Of a stretch of 34,542 bases of DNA, positions 22,545-32,895 are shown piece by piece. The position numbers were made by a program, and so were the translations under genes. The stretch lies in the NCBI GenBank assembly GCA_029225085.1, contig JAQXVU010000025.1:1-34542 (forward strand), given 5' to 3'. Each line of letters opens with the position of its first letter. Position 1 is the stretch's first letter. The notes beneath the pieces are model-generated. The model saw only the letters and a program-made list of their open reading frames with translations. It was not told where the DNA came from and did not search any database. The stretch comes from Eggerthellales bacterium (GTDB taxonomy: Bacteria; Actinomycetota; Coriobacteriia; Coriobacteriales; Eggerthellaceae).

Positions 22545-23963
22545 ATGAAGGCGACTGATCAGATTAAGCGTGCAGCGCTGATGAAAACCATGGATTACCT
22601 TTTGGAAGACCCCGAGGCAAACGTCACGAAGATCATGGGGATGCTTGACAAGGTGGCACCGGCCGATCTATTTCCCTCTCAGCGTGAGGCGTTCCGCAAC
22701 GCCATCGATAGCAAGAACAATTGGTATCAGCTCATCATGCGCGTTCTCGATCTGAATCCCGAGATTCGCGATGACCTGATTAAGAACTTCGTGGTAGATG
22801 GCAACCTTATGGCATGGCCTCGCCAGGAGGAGATGCGCAGAGAGCACCAATGCAACATTCCCTGGGCGATTCTGCTCGACCCAACTAGCGCCTGTAATCT
22901 GCATTGCACCGGTTGCTGGGCTGCGGAGTACGGCCATAGCCTGAACCTTACTTACGATGACATCGACAGCATCATCAATCAGGGTAAGGAGCTGGGTATT
23001 CGCTTCTACATTTATACGGGTGGCGAGCCCATGGTGCGCAAGAAGGACCTCATTCGCCTGTGCGAGGCCCATCCTGACTGCAGCTTTCTGTGCTTCACCA
23101 ACGCAACCCTCATCGATGAAGCCTTCTGTCAGGATCTTCTGCGGGTGAAGAACTTCGTCCCAGCCATCAGCGCCGAGGGATCCCGTGAGACCACCGATGA
23201 ACGCCGTGGTGAGGGAACCTACGATAAGGTTCTCGCGGCTATGCGGCTGCTGAAGGCACATGGGCTGCCTTTCGGCGTGTCCACCTGCGTGACCAGGGCG
23301 AACTGCGACACAGTTGGCAGCGAGGAATTTGTAGACTGGATGATCGAGCAAGGGGCCCTGTTCTGCTGGATGTTCACCTACATGCCCGTTGGCCACGGTG
23401 CCCCTACCGATCTGATGCTTACGGTGCAGCAGCGACAGCGCATGTACGACTTCGTACGCCGTATGCGCAACGAGAAATCCCTGTTCATCATGGACTTCCA
23501 GAATGACGGTGAGTTCGTCGGCGGCTGCATTGCCGGTGGTCGACGCTATCTGCATATAAACGCTGCGGGTGATGTGGAGCCCTGCGTTTTCGTGCACTAC
23601 AGCAACGCGAACATCCACGACAAGACCCTGCTTGAATGCCTGCAGTCACCCCTGTTCATGGCTTATTACGAGGATCAGCCCTTCAACGGTAACCTTCTGC
23701 GTCCGTGCCCCATGCTCGAGAACCCCGATTGCCTTCAGCGAATGGTGGAAGGAACCGGAGCGGTTTGCACAGATTTGGAAAGCGACGAGCCTGTGGAAGA
23801 ACTGTGCGACAAATGTCGCCCCTTCGCTGAGGAGTGGGCCCCTGTTGCCCAGGAGATGTGGGAGAACCCCGACGATCCTCGTAGGCCTTGGCGTGAGGAT
23901 ATCACCAAGAACATGGCTGAGACCGACAAGGAGAAGTTTGCTCGACAGGGTAGAACCTTCTGA
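22545..23963 (+). CDS. Radical SAM/SPASM-like protein, substrate unknown
   Basis: A 472-residue radical SAM enzyme. Residues 1-105 form a family-specific helical N-terminus. The S-adenosylmethionine cluster motif is C117-x3-C121-x2-C124 (CNLHCTGC), followed by YTGGEP (about 162) and the ISAEGSRE strand. The C-terminal third has SPASM-like cysteines (GGCIAGGRRYLHI, EPCVF, RPCPML, NPDC, LCDKC) that may bind one or more auxiliary [4Fe-4S] clusters. Close relatives appear to be widespread in anaerobic Firmicutes and Actinobacteria without an assigned reaction. No precursor peptide was seen beside it. ATG 22545 follows GATGAGGAG. Confidence 0.88.
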   Translation: MKATDQIKRAALMKTMDYLLEDPEANVTKIMGMLDKVAPADLFPSQREAFRNAIDSKNNWYQLIMRVLDLNPEIRDDLIKNFVVDGNLMAWPRQEEMRREHQCNIPWAILLDPTSACNLHCTGCWAAEYGHSLNLTYDDIDSIINQGKELGIRFYIYTGGEPMVRKKDLIRLCEAHPDCSFLCFTNATLIDEAFCQDLLRVKNFVPAISAEGSRETTDERRGEGTYDKVLAAMRLLKAHGLPFGVSTCVTRANCDTVGSEEFVDWMIEQGALFCWMFTYMPVGHGAPTDLMLTVQQRQRMYDFVRRMRNEKSLFIMDFQNDGEFVGGCIAGGRRYLHINAAGDVEPCVFVHYSNANIHDKTLLECLQSPLFMAYYEDQPFNGNLLRPCPMLENPDCLQRMVEGTGAVCTDLESDEPVEELCDKCRPFAEEWAPVAQEMWENPDDPRRPWREDITKNMAETDKEKFARQGRTF

Positions 23964-24070: not shown

Positions 24071-24444
24071 GCGCAAAATCCCAGGTAAAGCGCCTGTTCA
24101 TTGGAAAATAATTTCTAATCAAACCCCATCTGTTCCTGATACAACTTTTCATACACTTTTCGCAAAATATATAGTGTTTTCCCAGGCCAGAGACCAATTG
24201 TTGCTAATCGAAAACATTGTTTCTGATAAGGGGCTAAAAATGAATAAATGTGCAAGTAATTTCACATATTTGCCTTTTCTGAGGACTTTTGTCCCAAAAA
24301 GGTGTGGAATCTTTTTTGCCAAGCGGTATCGGGTCTTATTTACGTTTCACCTGATGCCGTGACAGTTTGAAGCGCATCTGACTACGTATAAGCACGAAAT
24401 TCTGATCAGTTTTCTATTACGTAAGATTTCGTGAGGTGTCGGAT
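24066..24444. other. AT-rich gene-free stretch before the surface protein
   Basis: This region is clearly AT-richer than the rest of the window. One 97-codon frame starts at 24069, but it has an alternative start codon, no ribosome-binding site and a composition unlike neighbouring genes, so I do not call it. The last 60 nt hold two TACGTA copies (24383-24388 and 24418-24423) and an inverted repeat CACGAAAT/ATTTCGTG (24393-24400 and 24426-24433). A weak promoter GTGACA-N18-TACGTA (24359-24388) is possible. Confidence 0.5.
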
Positions 24445-25620
24445 ATGCTGTTCAAGCGGAACAATTCCAATGCTCACCTGAATAAAGCTGCTATCTGTCT
24501 CGCTGCTCTTTTGCTTGCTGTGGGACTTGTTCCTCTTTCCGCTATTGGCGAGAATCTGGTGAACACCGCAGGTATGCAGGTTACTGCTGCAGGTGTTGCG
24601 TCTCTCGAGGATGAGGGCCTTTCCCCTTTGGCCGATGACGGATCTTCTTCCGATTCCGTTGATGATTCTGCGGCCTCTGATGCCCCCGAGGATGGCACCG
24701 AGAATGCTGCCGATTCTAATGTGAATTCTTCTGCTGGCAACTCTGGCGATAACGGTTCTTCTGGCAATTCGGGCGTCTCTAACGACTCCAGTTCGTCTTC
24801 TGATGGCTCTGCAGGTTCCGATACTTCTAAGGATTCCGCTGCAGCGAACAGCTCTTCTAAGGACAAGAGCACCTTCGCAGTCCGTAATTCTACCTATCCC
24901 GAATCTGTGCAGATCAATATCGATCCCAACAATCCTGAAAAGGGAACCATCACCTTCACCGTTGGCAGCGTATCTGTCACGGCTGGTAAGAGCAGCACGG
25001 CAACACTGACGGTAACGAATGGGACCTCATCTGACTCTAAGTCTTTTAACCTTACCCCTGGCTCTGTAAGCGCTAACCCCACAGGTTCCATCACTGCTGA
25101 ATCCGCACTCACGAAGGAGTCCGTGAAGAAGGGGAGCGAGGGCACCTTCTCCTTTAAGATTTCCGTTCCTAAGGCCACTATGTCCGGTACGTACTACGTG
25201 CCTATCGACATCACCTATCCCGATAACGGTAGCACTGTCTATACCGTGTACGCTGAGGTGAACGTAACCGCAGCTTATAGCGGCGTTATCTGCTCGAAGG
25301 GCCGCAATAACGGTTCCCAGCTCTCTGGCTACGACAACAAGTTCAGCGATGAGTTCCTGTCGCTGGCCTTTGATCTCGCTAACTACGCCGAGTCTGGCGC
25401 CAATTACGATTGGAAGCTGAAGATCGAGGCTGCTGAGAGTGCAACGGGCGACTTCGTAGACGTCACCGATCAGCTCTCCTGCCAGTGGACGACCCCTCTC
25501 TCCGGTAGCGTTGCCTCTGGTTTCTCCGGCTCTGGAGCCATGAGCGCTCAGGATGTGTACACCGGTGAAGCTAAGATTTCCTTGAATGATCTGGATCCCG
25601 ACCATAAGTACGTGGTGTAA
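24445..25620 (+). CDS. Secreted surface/pilin-like protein, apparently truncated at its C-terminus
   Basis: A 391-residue exported protein. A Sec signal peptide (about 12-36, CLAALLLAVGLVPLSAIG) is followed by a Ser/Asp/Asn-rich low-complexity stalk (about 55-140). One or two beta-sandwich domains of bacterial Ig-like character come next (about 145-390, including a SVTAGKSSTATLTVTNGTSS segment). It stops abruptly at HKYVV without the LPxTG-type motif, hydrophobic helix and positive tail expected of a sortase substrate. The downstream sortase coding begins out of frame across its end. ATG 24445 is chosen because GTGAGGTG lies just upstream; GTG 24436 is an alternative. Confidence 0.75.
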   Translation: MLFKRNNSNAHLNKAAICLAALLLAVGLVPLSAIGENLVNTAGMQVTAAGVASLEDEGLSPLADDGSSSDSVDDSAASDAPEDGTENAADSNVNSSAGNSGDNGSSGNSGVSNDSSSSSDGSAGSDTSKDSAAANSSSKDKSTFAVRNSTYPESVQINIDPNNPEKGTITFTVGSVSVTAGKSSTATLTVTNGTSSDSKSFNLTPGSVSANPTGSITAESALTKESVKKGSEGTFSFKISVPKATMSGTYYVPIDITYPDNGSTVYTVYAEVNVTAAYSGVICSKGRNNGSQLSGYDNKFSDEFLSLAFDLANYAESGANYDWKLKIEAAESATGDFVDVTDQLSCQWTTPLSGSVASGFSGSGAMSAQDVYTGEAKISLNDLDPDHKYVV

Positions 25621-26311
25621 GAAGCTGCACGAGTGGTTGGCTAGCTACAATGAGAGCTTAGCCAGTGGGGAAGTGACTCCTGCGGCCGACCCCTTCTCCT
25701 TCCAGGAGGCGGAAGATCAGTTTAACGGAAAGGGTCTCCAAAACGGGCTTGTGGGCTTCATCAAAATTCCCGCCATGAAGTGCAACATGCCCCTGTACTT
25801 GGGGTCGAGCTATGAGCACATGGCTTTGGGTGCCACGGTGGTTGGCGGCACCTCCGCGCCTATTGGCGGTGAGAGCACCAACTGCGCCATCGCTGCACAT
25901 CGTGGCTGGCAGACCTCGGCCATGTTCCGGGATATCGAGACCCTGAAGAAGGGCGATAAGGTGATCATCGGCAACCCCTGGGAGACCATGGAGTACCAGG
26001 TCACGAAGATTCGCGTCATAGATCCTTCCGATACTGATGCTATTGCCATTCAACCTGGTCGTGATCTGGTGTCCCTGCTGACCTGTCACCCCTATGGCTA
26101 CAACTACTCTCGTTATCTGGTTATCTGCGAGCGCGTAGACGCCGATAGTGTCGCGATCGAAGCCGACGCAAATGAAGACTCTGGCATTGCAGGTGAGCTC
26201 TCGTTGGTGCAGGTAGAAGACGTGCTGCGCATTGTGGGGCTGGCTGGCATCGCAATTTGCGCAGTGCTGCTGATTATGCGCCTTCGTAAGCAGAAGAAGA
26301 ACGGCCGGTAA
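25586..26311 (+). CDS. Class C sortase lacking its N-terminal membrane anchor (possible pseudogene)
   Basis: A sortase domain with catalytic H105 (AAHRGW), C167 (LLTCHPYG) and R176 (SRYLVICER). It has a DPF lid motif (35-37) and a C-terminal transmembrane helix with an RKQKK tail (about 213-241). All are class C features, so it should be a pilin polymerase. Class C enzymes normally have an N-terminal helix before the lid; here the frame instead begins inside the end of the surface-protein gene, 35 nt before that gene's stop and in another frame. The first 10 or so residues are not sortase-like and there is no good ribosome-binding site. It is probably a deletion remnant, possibly translated by coupling. 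Confidence 0.75.
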   Translation: MIWIPTISTWCKKLHEWLASYNESLASGEVTPAADPFSFQEAEDQFNGKGLQNGLVGFIKIPAMKCNMPLYLGSSYEHMALGATVVGGTSAPIGGESTNCAIAAHRGWQTSAMFRDIETLKKGDKVIIGNPWETMEYQVTKIRVIDPSDTDAIAIQPGRDLVSLLTCHPYGYNYSRYLVICERVDADSVAIEADANEDSGIAGELSLVQVEDVLRIVGLAGIAICAVLLIMRLRKQKKNGR

Positions 26312-26338
26312 ACTGTTGGTTGCCAGTGGGTCGTTATA

Positions 26339-26382
26339 TGTCAGCACCTGGCTGGCTGATGGCTAATCAGTATGTGCTGACA
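26339..26382. repeat. Nested inverted repeat after the sortase gene
   Basis: Outer arms TGTCAGCAC/GTGCTGACA (26339-26347 and 26374-26382) enclose an inner CTGAT/ATCAG hairpin (26356-26360 and 26366-26370). No T-tract follows, so this is not a standard terminator. Confidence 0.6.
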
Positions 26383-26481
26383 CGTAACCGGTCGCCTGCG
26401 AATGGTCACATGTCGGTGAATGAGCCGAAATCTGCATTGTCCCTGCTGTTCGCGGACTTTTCCTGCTCCCTTATGTCTGTG

Positions 26482-27629: not shown

Positions 27630-27774
27630 CGAATAGCCCTATTCCTGTTACCCCGGCAAACGCCTCGTCGGAATCGAAGCTTTAGTTCATCGAAGATCCG
27701 TTCATTAGCGGCTCCGCTGGTTCTATGCGCTAAACTGAATGAAGCAACGTGAATTGTCTGGAAGGGGCTCCGCC

Positions 27775-29304
27775 GTGGAAGATTCCTCTAAGAAAACTCA
27801 GAAGCGCTTTTGCTCTCAGTGCGGAACTCCCGTGCGCGACAACGAGAAATTTTGCCGTGAATGCGGAGCTCTATTGAAGTCTGTCCCCGTTTCTGAAGAG
27901 TCAGCCTCTAAGGAGCATACCTCCGCGCAGAATGAATCTTCCGAGCAGCAGACCGCGGCTTCATCGTCTGGTCCCGCTTCCGCCACTGCAGCAGCTTCCG
28001 CTGGCACTGCGTCTGCGAAAACCGAGTCCGCTTCCACCTCTGCGACATCTGAGACAGCCTCCACATTTACTCCCTCAGATCCTGCTCCTGCCAAAGAGCC
28101 CGAGAACGTCTTCGAGGCCCTCGGCTGGGATGCTCCTGACCCTCAACAGCTAAAGAGCATTCAAGCCGGCAAGCGCAAGAAGCTCAGCCCCCGCACCTTC
28201 ATCATTTTGGTTGTCGTGGCCGTTATCGCACTGCCAATGGCCCTTTTCGGCGGATGTACTGCCTGCGGCGTCTTCGATGACGACATTACCTACGAGGACG
28301 ATTCACCTCACAAGCTGTATTGGCCCTACAGCGGTCTTGCCCAGATGCTCCCGGAGCCTGATGCGGAGTACGGCGATATCGAGAAAGACAAGAATTCCGA
28401 CTTCCGCGCCACGTTAGAGGAAGTGCAGCCTGAGTACTTCGCCGACTATGCAAAAGAGTGCCAGGCCTACGGCTTCTCCCTGAACGTAACGCAGGATGAG
28501 ACCAGCTTCTCGGCGGAAAACGACGAGGGCTGCGCTCTGCACCTGACCTACAGCGAAGATAACATGCGCATGAAGATCAAGCTTACGGCTCCTACGGTGC
28601 GCGTTCGGGTTGAGGTGGAATGCGACGAGGCTTCCTCTGAGGACTACGATATCTGGGTTGTCATCGATGACGATTGGCAGGGCACTATTCGCAAGGGCGA
28701 GAGCGACATCTACGACCTCGACCTCACCTCTGGCAAGCACACTCTGCGCATCGAGAGCGAAGATAACTACGAGGTCTACGGAACCATGCCCTTCACGGTG
28801 TCCGGTGAGTGCGCTCTGACTTTCAGCGCTAATTGCAAGAAAGATCGCGTGAAGATCACCTTGGTACAGGAGTCTGGTGACGCAACGGTTGGCGACGAGG
28901 TTGCTGCTGGCGATGAGACTGCGGCCGAGACGACCAATGGTGCTTCTGCTTCGTCGTCTGCATCTAAGCCTGCTGATCCCGATATGGTCACCTACACCAA
29001 GGTTAATGCTAAACAGCTCATGGATGACGTGGCAAACGATGCCGACAAGGCAAAGCAGGACTATTACTTCGAGTATGTGGAAGTAACCGGTGTCATCGAC
29101 TCCATAGACTCTGATCTGTCCTACGTCACCATTGTTCCGAAGAAGGGAACCTACTTCTACAACGTCATGGGCTTCACGCAGGATAAGGACCAGGAGAAGG
29201 CCCTGAAGAAGTACGCGGAGGGCGACGAGATAACTCTTCGCGGTCAGATTACTTTGGTGAGCCAGCTTCTTGGCTACAGCATGGATATCTACGAGATTCT
29301 ATAA
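27775..29304 (+). CDS. Zinc-ribbon membrane protein with DUF6591-like and OB-fold domains
   Basis: A 509-residue protein of unknown role. It has an N-terminal zinc ribbon (C13, C16, C27, C30: FCSQCG...FCRECG), a Ser/Ala/Thr-rich disordered linker (about 40-115), and one transmembrane helix (about 141-160). An extracellular region starting YWPYSGLAQMLPEPDAEYG resembles DUF6591 (about 182-275). A beta-rich segment and a second linker lead to a C-terminal domain like the tRNA_anti-like OB-fold (about 410-509, with YYFEYVEVTGVI). GTG 27775 is chosen because GGAAGGGG lies 8 nt upstream; ATG 27739 has no such site. It lies between two sortase regions but has no sorting signal. Confidence 0.8.
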   Translation: MEDSSKKTQKRFCSQCGTPVRDNEKFCRECGALLKSVPVSEESASKEHTSAQNESSEQQTAASSSGPASATAAASAGTASAKTESASTSATSETASTFTPSDPAPAKEPENVFEALGWDAPDPQQLKSIQAGKRKKLSPRTFIILVVVAVIALPMALFGGCTACGVFDDDITYEDDSPHKLYWPYSGLAQMLPEPDAEYGDIEKDKNSDFRATLEEVQPEYFADYAKECQAYGFSLNVTQDETSFSAENDEGCALHLTYSEDNMRMKIKLTAPTVRVRVEVECDEASSEDYDIWVVIDDDWQGTIRKGESDIYDLDLTSGKHTLRIESEDNYEVYGTMPFTVSGECALTFSANCKKDRVKITLVQESGDATVGDEVAAGDETAAETTNGASASSSASKPADPDMVTYTKVNAKQLMDDVANDADKAKQDYYFEYVEVTGVIDSIDSDLSYVTIVPKKGTYFYNVMGFTQDKDQEKALKKYAEGDEITLRGQITLVSQLLGYSMDIYEIL

Positions 29305-29392: not shown

Positions 29393-30181
29393 TTAAAGCT
29401 CGACGTTATCTTCTACATAACCCACAATGAGATAACGGGTTTCTGCAGCTGCGTCTACGCAGGTCACAAGCTGAATAAGCTGTTCTGGCGATGCGGGGAC
29501 GTCGTTGAGCTTTACTTGGGCGGTCGCGGACAAATCCGTAGCATAGTCTTGTAGGGCTGCGGGGGAGGAGTAGCTCCTGCGCATAACACCCGTATCCTGT
29601 GAGGAGATTTTGCTCACGGCGAAAAGCTTTACCTGGTAGTTTGCGCTAGGCGTCAGCACGTATAGCGTGTCGTGATCTTGAAAGTCCCCCTCGTCGGCCA
29701 TTTGAGCAAGCTGGCCGAACATGCTGCCGTCCTGCATGTTGTGACCGAAGATGGTGCTCACCATATCGGAATAATCAGCAGCGTTTTCGCAGTTCAGGAA
29801 TATACATCCAGTGTGCACTACGCCGTCCTCATCGCCAGAGAAATTCTTATGCAGGTACTCCTCGTTATCGTCGCCTTGCACGATTGGATAGTTCACGTTG
29901 GTGCCCGGCATATACACCCAACCCACCACATCAGGATTCTCATCGCGAAGGTGCTCCCAATCAGCCGTCATATCCTGCAGGGATAGATGAGCATCAGAAG
30001 AGTTAAGGTCCGTAACGTTGCGAGCCAAATCGTCATATTTTGATCCAGCCTGCAGGTAGGAGCAGCCTATGAATGCGAGGCCCATAACGGAAACTGCGAA
30101 GACCACGGAGCACAGGGCCACAAGAACTCGGTGCGTTGCGTTCCCTCGATGGGTCTCGCCGCTCTGCTTCTTTTCGCCCAC
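29393..30181 (-). CDS. Class B sortase
   Basis: A membrane-anchored transpeptidase that cuts a sorting signal and joins the protein to the wall. The 262-residue protein has an N-terminal transmembrane helix (about 18-40) and the class B core: GWVYMPGTNVNYPIVQ (87-102), IFGHNM with H147, LYVLTP, QLVTC with C241, and R249 in ETRYLIVGY. All three catalytic residues are present. The start is GTG 30181, with AGGAGG 5 nt upstream on the minus strand. No substrate with an NPQTN-like or LPxTG-like motif is visible next to it. It is convergent with the zinc-ribbon/OB-fold gene. Confidence 0.9.
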   Translation of the reverse strand: MGEKKQSGETHRGNATHRVLVALCSVVFAVSVMGLAFIGCSYLQAGSKYDDLARNVTDLNSSDAHLSLQDMTADWEHLRDENPDVVGWVYMPGTNVNYPIVQGDDNEEYLHKNFSGDEDGVVHTGCIFLNCENAADYSDMVSTIFGHNMQDGSMFGQLAQMADEGDFQDHDTLYVLTPSANYQVKLFAVSKISSQDTGVMRRSYSSPAALQDYATDLSATAQVKLNDVPASPEQLIQLVTCVDAAAETRYLIVGYVEDNVEL

Positions 30182-30441: not shown

Positions 30442-32721
30442 TTAAGCGCCCACAACCTTCACGGTCTTGCCGCAGTTGCTCTTGGTGAAGTACTTGCTGT
30501 AGGTCTTCACCTTGCTCTTGGCAACGACAACCTTGGTAACAGAAGAGCTCTTCAGGCTGCCAGAAACAGAGGACTTGGTGAGCTTGCCGCTCTTCACCAC
30601 CAGGGTCTTCACACCCGTGTGATACAGGGCGTTCTCGCCAATCTTGGTGACGTTGGTGGGGATGGTGAGCTTGGTAAGGCTGGTGCACTTAGAGAATGCG
30701 GAGCGCTCGATGGTCTTCAAGCTAGAAGGCAAGGTCACGGTCTTCAGCTTGCTGCAGCCGCGGAAAGCGTACTTGCCAATAGTGGTCACGGTAGAAGGAA
30801 TGGTGACTTTGGTGAGCTTCTTGTTGTTCTCGCAAGCGCTGCTCTTAATGCTGGTCACCTTGTAGGTTGCGCCCTTAATCTTCACCGCAGAGGGAACGTA
30901 GGCGTAGCTGGTGTTCTTTGGGCAAGCTGCATAAGAAACTACACCGCCCTTGCCGTTCTTGTCGGCGGACTTCACTACCTGCACGGAGGCACCGGCGGAC
31001 TTGCCGGAGATGATCTTCACCACGGTACCTGCTTTGGGAGCGGTAGAGGTTGTAGGTGCTACAACTTCAGGAGCATTGGGGTCTTCTAGCTCGTACACTG
31101 CCAACGTGCCGGAAACTTCGCAGGCTGCCAGAAGCTGAGCCTTGCCGGAAGCGTTGCTTTCAGCTGGGACGAAGCACAGGCCCTCGGGAGAAACGTCGCC
31201 CTGAATGGCGGAATCGAACTCACGGGAGTTGATGTAGTTCACGTAGGAAACGTTGGAGGGGTCGGTGATGTCGTAGACCATGACGCCGCCGATGCGCTCG
31301 AGGGCGGCGAATGCATAGGTCTTGCCGTTCACCGTACCGGTAACGACGGTTTCAGGCTCGGGACCCTTCTTACCGGAGCGGTTGTCGGCATCCAACTTGT
31401 CGTTAGAGCAGTTAAAGTTTGCGGGCAGCGTGGCGAGGGTGGTCTCTTCCATAGTGCTGCCAGAGTCATACACCAGGTTCAGGCCGGAATCGGTAACCTC
31501 ATACATGCTGATGGAACGACCGCCAAACATGTAGTCCTTGGTGGTGTCAAGGCCGTCCCACATCTCGGAGTTAAACCATACGACCTTCTTGCTGAACGTA
31601 ACGTTGCCGGTAGGGGAGGTCTTGCTCTCGTACTCGTTGCTCATGCCGGACCAGTCGGCGCGGCTGTCGCCCTCGTTGGCGGTGAGAAGGTAGGTCTTGC
31701 CGTTAATGGCGGTGGCGCTGATGCCGTCTGACATCTTAATGCCGTAGATGCCCTCGTAGTTCTTCAGCTCGCACACGCCGTCCTTTTCCAGATCAGCCTT
31801 AGTGGTGCCGAAGTCCTGGAAGCCCAAGGGATATACGCCGGTGAAGGTCTCATCGGCGATGTTCAGCACGGCGATGGAGTTTGCCTCCTGCAGGGAGACA
31901 TAGGCGTTGTTGCCGCTGACGGCGATGTACTCGGGCTCAAAATCAGTGGAAGGCATGATGCCCTTCTGAATGAGCACGCCAGATTCGGTGAGCTGATCGC
32001 GTTGGGCATCGTACTGGTCGAAGTAAACGCTGGTGACAGACAGTGCATTGTCCTGTCCGATCTTCACTACGCTCACAGAACCCTTGGGATCGGTGCCCTC
32101 AGTGCCCAGACGGGGCTCGCCCTCGTCAGCAGTGAGAATGGCAGACTCGCCAGCGAAGGTCACCATGTCGGGCTGTACGCCAACCTGAGCGGTGGAAAGC
32201 AGGTTCAGGGAGCCATCGGCGTTGCAGGCGAAGAGGGCAACCAAGCCTGCTGCTGCGTAATTCTCGGCTTGTACGGCAACTGCCAGCTTAGAACCGTCAG
32301 GAGAGACGGCCACCGAGGTCATGTCGCCGTAGGTGAAGGAGTCGGAGGTCAGGAGGTCCTTCAGGTCGTACTCCGTGCCAGCAAGGTTGCTGACCGTTTC
32401 AGCATCCATCTTCTGGGAGGTTTGTACGGCGATGAGCTTGCCCTTTACGCCGCTGACAGCGTAGGAGTACCCATTTGCAGCGTTGTACTGCACGATTTCA
32501 AGGCTGCCGCCATCGGCGGACTGAGCGCCGGAATTGTAGCGGCCAGCCAGCTGCATCTTTAGGCTTGCGGCCTCGTTGTTGAATCCGGCCACCTTCGCAT
32601 CGCTGGTGGTGGTAGGGGTGAACTGTTCGGAACCGGGATCTGCGGTTTCCGCAAGCGCTGCAGGAGCAAGGGCCGTAGAGGCCAGTGCGCATGCAAGGAA
32701 GCAGCTCAGTACGCGTTTCAT
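30442..32721 (-). CDS. Secreted choice-of-anchor I protein with BspA-like leucine-rich repeats
   Basis: A 759-residue exported protein with a Sec signal peptide (1-24, ending APAALA). A beta-propeller-type choice-of-anchor I region follows (about 45-545), with SPDGSKLAVAVQAENY, LTADEGEPR, LTANEGDSRADW, GPEPETVVTG and SPEGLCF segments. After an Ala/Pro/Thr linker come BspA-type leucine-rich repeats (about 615-759, KLTKVTIPSTVTTIGKYAFRGCSKL and similar). Related propellers are often described as phytase- or phosphatase-like, but no catalytic site can be asserted. BspA repeats usually bind host or bacterial surfaces. No sorting signal or wall-binding repeat is seen. ATG 32721 follows AAAGGAG on the minus strand. 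Confidence 0.85.
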   Translation of the reverse strand: MKRVLSCFLACALASTALAPAALAETADPGSEQFTPTTTSDAKVAGFNNEAASLKMQLAGRYNSGAQSADGGSLEIVQYNAANGYSYAVSGVKGKLIAVQTSQKMDAETVSNLAGTEYDLKDLLTSDSFTYGDMTSVAVSPDGSKLAVAVQAENYAAAGLVALFACNADGSLNLLSTAQVGVQPDMVTFAGESAILTADEGEPRLGTEGTDPKGSVSVVKIGQDNALSVTSVYFDQYDAQRDQLTESGVLIQKGIMPSTDFEPEYIAVSGNNAYVSLQEANSIAVLNIADETFTGVYPLGFQDFGTTKADLEKDGVCELKNYEGIYGIKMSDGISATAINGKTYLLTANEGDSRADWSGMSNEYESKTSPTGNVTFSKKVVWFNSEMWDGLDTTKDYMFGGRSISMYEVTDSGLNLVYDSGSTMEETTLATLPANFNCSNDKLDADNRSGKKGPEPETVVTGTVNGKTYAFAALERIGGVMVYDITDPSNVSYVNYINSREFDSAIQGDVSPEGLCFVPAESNASGKAQLLAACEVSGTLAVYELEDPNAPEVVAPTTSTAPKAGTVVKIISGKSAGASVQVVKSADKNGKGGVVSYAACPKNTSYAYVPSAVKIKGATYKVTSIKSSACENNKKLTKVTIPSTVTTIGKYAFRGCSKLKTVTLPSSLKTIERSAFSKCTSLTKLTIPTNVTKIGENALYHTGVKTLVVKSGKLTKSSVSGSLKSSSVTKVVVAKSKVKTYSKYFTKSNCGKTVKVVGA

Positions 32722-32799
32722 GCTTCTTGTATCTCCTTTCAGAAACGAGTGAAGACAAGGGTCTCGGTCACCTTGTCCTGCACCCATGCTAGAAAGGCT

Positions 32800-32838
32800 G
32801 ATACAGATGCTCATCACCTGCATGCAAAATGAATGCAA
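32800..32838 (-). promoter_or_regulatory. Possible promoter with 11-bp direct repeats
   Basis: On the minus strand TTGCAT occurs twice, 11 bp apart (32833-32838 and 32822-32827). The nearer copy could be a -35, 16 nt from TGTATC (32800-32805). An 11-bp period is typical of OmpR/PhoB-family response-regulator sites. Confidence 0.35.
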
Positions 32839-32895
32839 AGCGCGGGTTGCCTCCTTTCTGAACCTCGGAGCCACTCCACACATCTTCCATATAAA

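Follow-up and report, generated by a model that had tools for sequence, protein, structure and literature searches.

Stumps of a tip-protein gene and a class C sortase gene adjoin in an Eggerthellales genome, very probably through a single deletion within a pilus operon

The window analyzed here is the whole 34,542-nucleotide stretch of contig JAQXVU010000025.1 from an Eggerthellales bacterium (assembly GCA_029225085.1, positions 1 to 34,542, forward strand). It contains two forward-strand open reading frames (ORFs) that abut in different frames: a surface-protein ORF, called at 24436–25620 (+; 394 amino acids from GTG 24436), and a sortase ORF, mechanically called from ATG 25586 to 26311 (+; 241 amino acids), which lies in the +1 frame relative to that of the surface protein (Table 1). 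Upstream of the pair, 22545–23963 (+) encodes a radical SAM/SPASM protein. The product of 27739–29304 (+) is a zinc-ribbon protein that matches DUF6591 and has a tRNA_anti-like domain. Another sortase, presumably of class B by its appearance, is encoded on the opposite strand at 29393–30181 (−; Pfam Sortase, 6e-11) and adjoins a large choice-of-anchor I/BspA-type leucine-rich-repeat protein at 30442–32883 (−). The dyad just 3′ of the first sortase is possibly the terminator of its operon, although a terminator scan did not pick it; signals in the promoter and terminator scans are close to background, and an Rfam search of the window gave no match to an RNA element.

The likelier start of the surface protein is ATG 24445, which is preceded by AGGTG and gives a product of 391 amino acids. 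This start is suggested by the 1248-amino-acid tip protein of genome G094, which begins with MLFK and matches the window protein there. The N-terminus carries a signal-peptide-like helix, the sole hydrophobic stretch of the protein (residues 19–37), and the C-terminus (…KYVV) has no LPXTG-type sorting signal, no C-terminal helix and no basic tail, the three C-terminal features of an LPXTG-type pilin or surface protein. Pfam yields only weak matches, under the cut-off (best E 0.0017), and the NCBIfam search of this protein yields no match. The protein resembles residues 77–376 of the 1262-amino-acid tip protein of genome G047, a member of the same family (27% identity, E 2e-17), with homology that stops at its own residue 384 of 394, corresponding to base 25587; the match to the G094 tip (25% identity, E 4e-19) extends from the start to residue 371. 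Four matches besides the protein itself were found among 138 genomes of the family at E ≤ 0.001, of which those in G047 and G094 are the strong ones, and only these two were found besides it among 396 genomes of the class at E ≤ 1e-12. The surface-protein frame closes with a TAA at 25618 and has three further stops by 25723. The tip stump, if expressed, would be exported yet not anchored.

Table 1. Positions of features at the window locus and of the intact operon in G047
Feature	Sequence	Position	Strand	Basis or remark
Tip pilin/adhesin stump, with the signal peptide and the first N-terminal region but without a sorting signal	Window	24445..25617	+	Homology to G047 and G094 tips
Putative deletion junction (seam somewhere within)	Window	25588..25619	.	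End of tip homology 25587, start of SrtC2 homology 25619
TAA stop closing tip stump, at seam	Window	25618..25620	+	Sequence
SrtC2 stump, class C sortase without N-terminal membrane helix	Window	25619..26311	+	46% identity to G047 SrtC2; NF033745
Lid motif DPF	Window	25688..25696	+	Alignment with relatives
His105 (numbering from ATG 25586), catalytic by alignment	Window	25898..25900	+	Alignments
Cys167 in TCHP, catalytic by alignment	Window	26084..26086	+	Alignments
Arg176, catalytic by alignment	Window	26111..26113	+	Alignments
C-terminal membrane helix, then basic tail	Window	26231..26278	+	Hydropathy peak after Cys
Dyad just 3′ of sortase, 15-nt arms, 87% complementary	Window	26333..26388	.	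Repeat/dyad search
G047 tip	L033	7063-10851		
G047 backbone pilin	L033	10975-12402		
G047 SrtC1	L033	12502-13374		
G047 SrtC2	L033	13378-14310		

The sortase is homologous to residues 76–310 of G047 SrtC2, that is, to the end of that protein (E 4e-72), and the homology begins at codon 25619, residue 12 of the ORF counted from ATG 25586. It matches the NCBIfam class C sortase model NF033745 with 177.8 bits (cut-off 160) over model positions 48–220 of 220; intact G047 SrtC2 spans positions 2–220, and positions 1–47 are thus lacking from the window sortase. The closest solved structures include several class C and pilus sortases. A DPX-type lid precedes the barrel, and His, Cys and Arg residues are present at positions set by alignment, which we take to be catalytic in this enzyme as well. 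The C-terminal membrane helix, which is absent from the SrtC2 proteins of several relatives, has a hydropathy peak of 2.65 (1.68 in a calculation with other handling of runs). A hydropathy search for an N-terminal signal or membrane helix found none (peak 0.33), and no further stops interrupt the sortase frame. The original prediction had described a surface protein that ends without a sorting signal, followed in a different frame by a sortase that has lost its N-terminal helix and keeps its lid, catalytic triad and C-terminal helix, and the two ORFs agree with it on each of these points.

A search of the 396 class genomes with the sortase (E ≤ 1e-40) found 31 places in 28 genomes, including its own; 30 of the places are in other genomes. 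Seventeen relatives' loci were compared, of which 15 come from these 30 places and the other two are those of G094 and G019. In every one of the 17, the sortase reaches a hydrophobic peak of 1.87 or more in the stretch 115–230 residues ahead of the catalytic Cys. With its catalytic core complete and its C-terminal helix in place, the truncated sortase might be translated alone and work as a tail-anchored or cytoplasmic enzyme, and the available text of one study of class C sortases reports that recombinant forms from which the leader and the hydrophobic N-terminal region are missing show activity when assayed for peptide cleavage (PMC3493515). We regard this as very improbable, however, as the window sortase has no export signal, all 17 relatives examined keep the N-terminal helix, and the first ATG of the sortase frame (25586) lies within the surface gene, out of the tip-gene frame, and lacks a clear ribosome-binding site. 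This ATG is preceded in its own frame by a stop at 25583, and the next start codons of the frame fall inside the sortase. On grounds of topology, loss of the N-terminal helix would leave the SrtC2 stump, for which neither a plausible start nor an export signal is seen, inactive. The same text also states that class C sortases without the C-terminal membrane domain are unable to polymerize pili in vivo (PMC3493515).

In G047, one operon on contig C17 encodes the 1262-amino-acid tip, an LPVTG backbone pilin, SrtC1 and SrtC2. The two window stumps match the first and last genes of this operon in the same order, including the C-terminal helix of SrtC2; in contrast to the window locus, the G047 operon is intact, and it is a distant relative, with the stumps only 27% and 46% identical to its products. 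Another sortase lies directly upstream of SrtC2 in 15 of the 17 relatives' loci, and the remaining two (L068, L071) have none within the stretch covered. Four of six tabulated loci from other genomes (G047, G085, G055 and Robinsoniella peoriensis) have a large surface protein, an LPXTG pilin and two sortases, in that order; in the other two (G099, G094) a pilin is likewise followed by two sortases, and the large protein has another position. These intact relatives define a four-gene type of pilus operon in these bacteria. A scan of genome contigs for relatives gave a single match, to R. peoriensis of the phylum Bacillota (L032, 2434–8510), in which the same four-gene order occurs and SrtC2 shows about 50% identity, a hint of transfer from one phylum to another.

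The genes that are missing between the stumps were sought in the organism's own genome, a draft of 91 contigs in which the window query occurs at one place. With the G047 tip as a query, only the window stump was matched; the tips of G047 and G094 are 48% identical over 1214 columns, so the missing part of the tip should be recognizable elsewhere if present. The window sortase has no backbone pilin beside it, and the locus thus lacks the isopeptide/K2N pilin with an LPXTG motif that is expected of a functional pilus operon. A search of the own genome with the G047 backbone pilin gave no match, which is a weak test: it missed even the pilin encoded on contig C61, and the pilin model TIGR04226 was therefore relied on instead. 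The sole match to this model is in C61. The Sortase family PF04203 matches four places, namely C61, the SrtC2 stump, 29420–29914 (−) of the window and C85, none of which is a candidate SrtC1 for the window locus, judged by place; the matches at 29420 (−) and in C85 are weak and lie away from any pilin found. Contig C61 (L043, 3819–9862) carries a 1161-amino-acid surface protein, a 515-amino-acid LPVTG pilin and a 285-amino-acid class C sortase, a second, separate pilus operon that is apparently intact. The missing genes may be located on a contig that is absent from the draft.

A single internal deletion has very probably joined the front of a tip gene to the back of SrtC2, leaving two stumps of a pilus operon, and the observation is not a matter of chance, as the stumps match two genes of one G047 operon in the same order. 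The ancestral locus would have been tip adhesin–backbone pilin–SrtC1–SrtC2, of which the window would keep both operon ends. One deletion would have taken out the distal two thirds of the tip gene along with its cell-wall sorting signal, both middle genes (backbone pilin and SrtC1) in full and, from SrtC2, the coding sequence for the N-terminal membrane helix. The points equivalent to the two stump ends lie 5412 bases apart in G047, with the remainder of the tip gene, the genes for the backbone pilin and SrtC1 and the beginning of SrtC2 in between; by analogy, the deletion may have been about 5.4 kb in size. The seam is placed at 25588–25619 because the tip match ends at base 25587 and the SrtC2 match begins at base 25619. 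The loss of one stretch accordingly accounts for both stumps, as had been proposed for the interval 25560–25660, which is now narrowed; the proposal of a broken pilus locus is likewise upheld by the comparison with intact relatives and by the failure to find the middle genes elsewhere in the own genome.

The alternative that had been offered, a ribosomal frameshift that yields a surface-protein/sortase fusion, fared differently. The two frames abut and the sortase core is complete, as such a fusion would have it, but the ribosome would have to shift by +1 (or −2) at a point where a stop closes the surface frame, and inspection of GTG GTG TAA by eye revealed no slippery sequence. In addition, the seam falls inside a single long tip gene in both G047 and G094, and none of the relatives examined has a fusion of this kind. 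A literature search for natural sortase/pilin fusions listed nothing relevant; the one paper that came up concerns a vaccine, by its title and abstract. Recoding at the seam is therefore extremely improbable.

An error of assembly or library would leave the organism's operon intact, its middle having been lost by the assembler, by a chimeric read or through a minority strain. The draft state of the genome favors this explanation, as does the appearance of the stumps, both of which still look intact, the sortase frame being free of further stops. For a repeat-collapse error, the two joined genes, here the tip gene and SrtC2, would have to share a sequence as long as a k-mer. The two homologies, which lie in different frames, are separated by at most 32 bases, which probably leaves little room for such a repeat and favors a real deletion; no long exact repeat was found around the seam. 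An artefact is further opposed by the single place of the window query in the genome and by the lack of the missing genes on any other contig, and we consider it unlikely.

If a deletion is accepted, the sortase frame, in which no further stops have accumulated, suggests that the event was recent, and the locus most likely makes no pilus. The process is one of ordinary gene decay. It is highly improbable that the secreted tip fragment or the sortase lacking its N-terminal anchor is kept as a recurrent or selected "off" state of the pilus that acts with the C61 operon; were it so, the one or the other might, for example, trim or cap C61 pilins. For annotation, the 394- and 241-amino-acid ORFs should be labelled as what is left of a pilus operon instead of a small new surface protein and a soluble sortase, and the locus adds one case in which a genome has lost one of its two pilus operons.

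A literature search on pili of Eggerthellaceae listed nothing relevant. Besides the G047 operon, the closest known systems come from other bacteria. The pilus cluster on plasmid pSH74 of Lactococcus lactis NCDO712 has the gene order spaCB-spaA-srtC1-srtC2, and in clones its tip gene spaCB had undergone an internal deletion, according to the portion of the report available (PMC5152845). By this description, the operon proposed for the window shares the gene order, whereas the pSH74 deletion is confined to spaCB. Decayed pilus clusters are also described, in the corresponding portion of PMC3744422, for SpaCBA of Lacticaseibacillus rhamnosus, in which remnants occur in strains that bind mucus poorly. 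Decay of a non-essential pilus cluster is probably common to the L. rhamnosus and window loci, but the genes and the phylum are different, and the L. rhamnosus region is flanked by many insertion sequence elements. For class C sortases, the available text of PMC3493515 describes the DPX motif and the lid, and SrtC1 and SrtC2 of group B Streptococcus pilus island 1, as presented there, share the lid, catalytic barrel and C-terminal helix with the window sortase, whereas the window copy is without the leader and the N-terminal helix.
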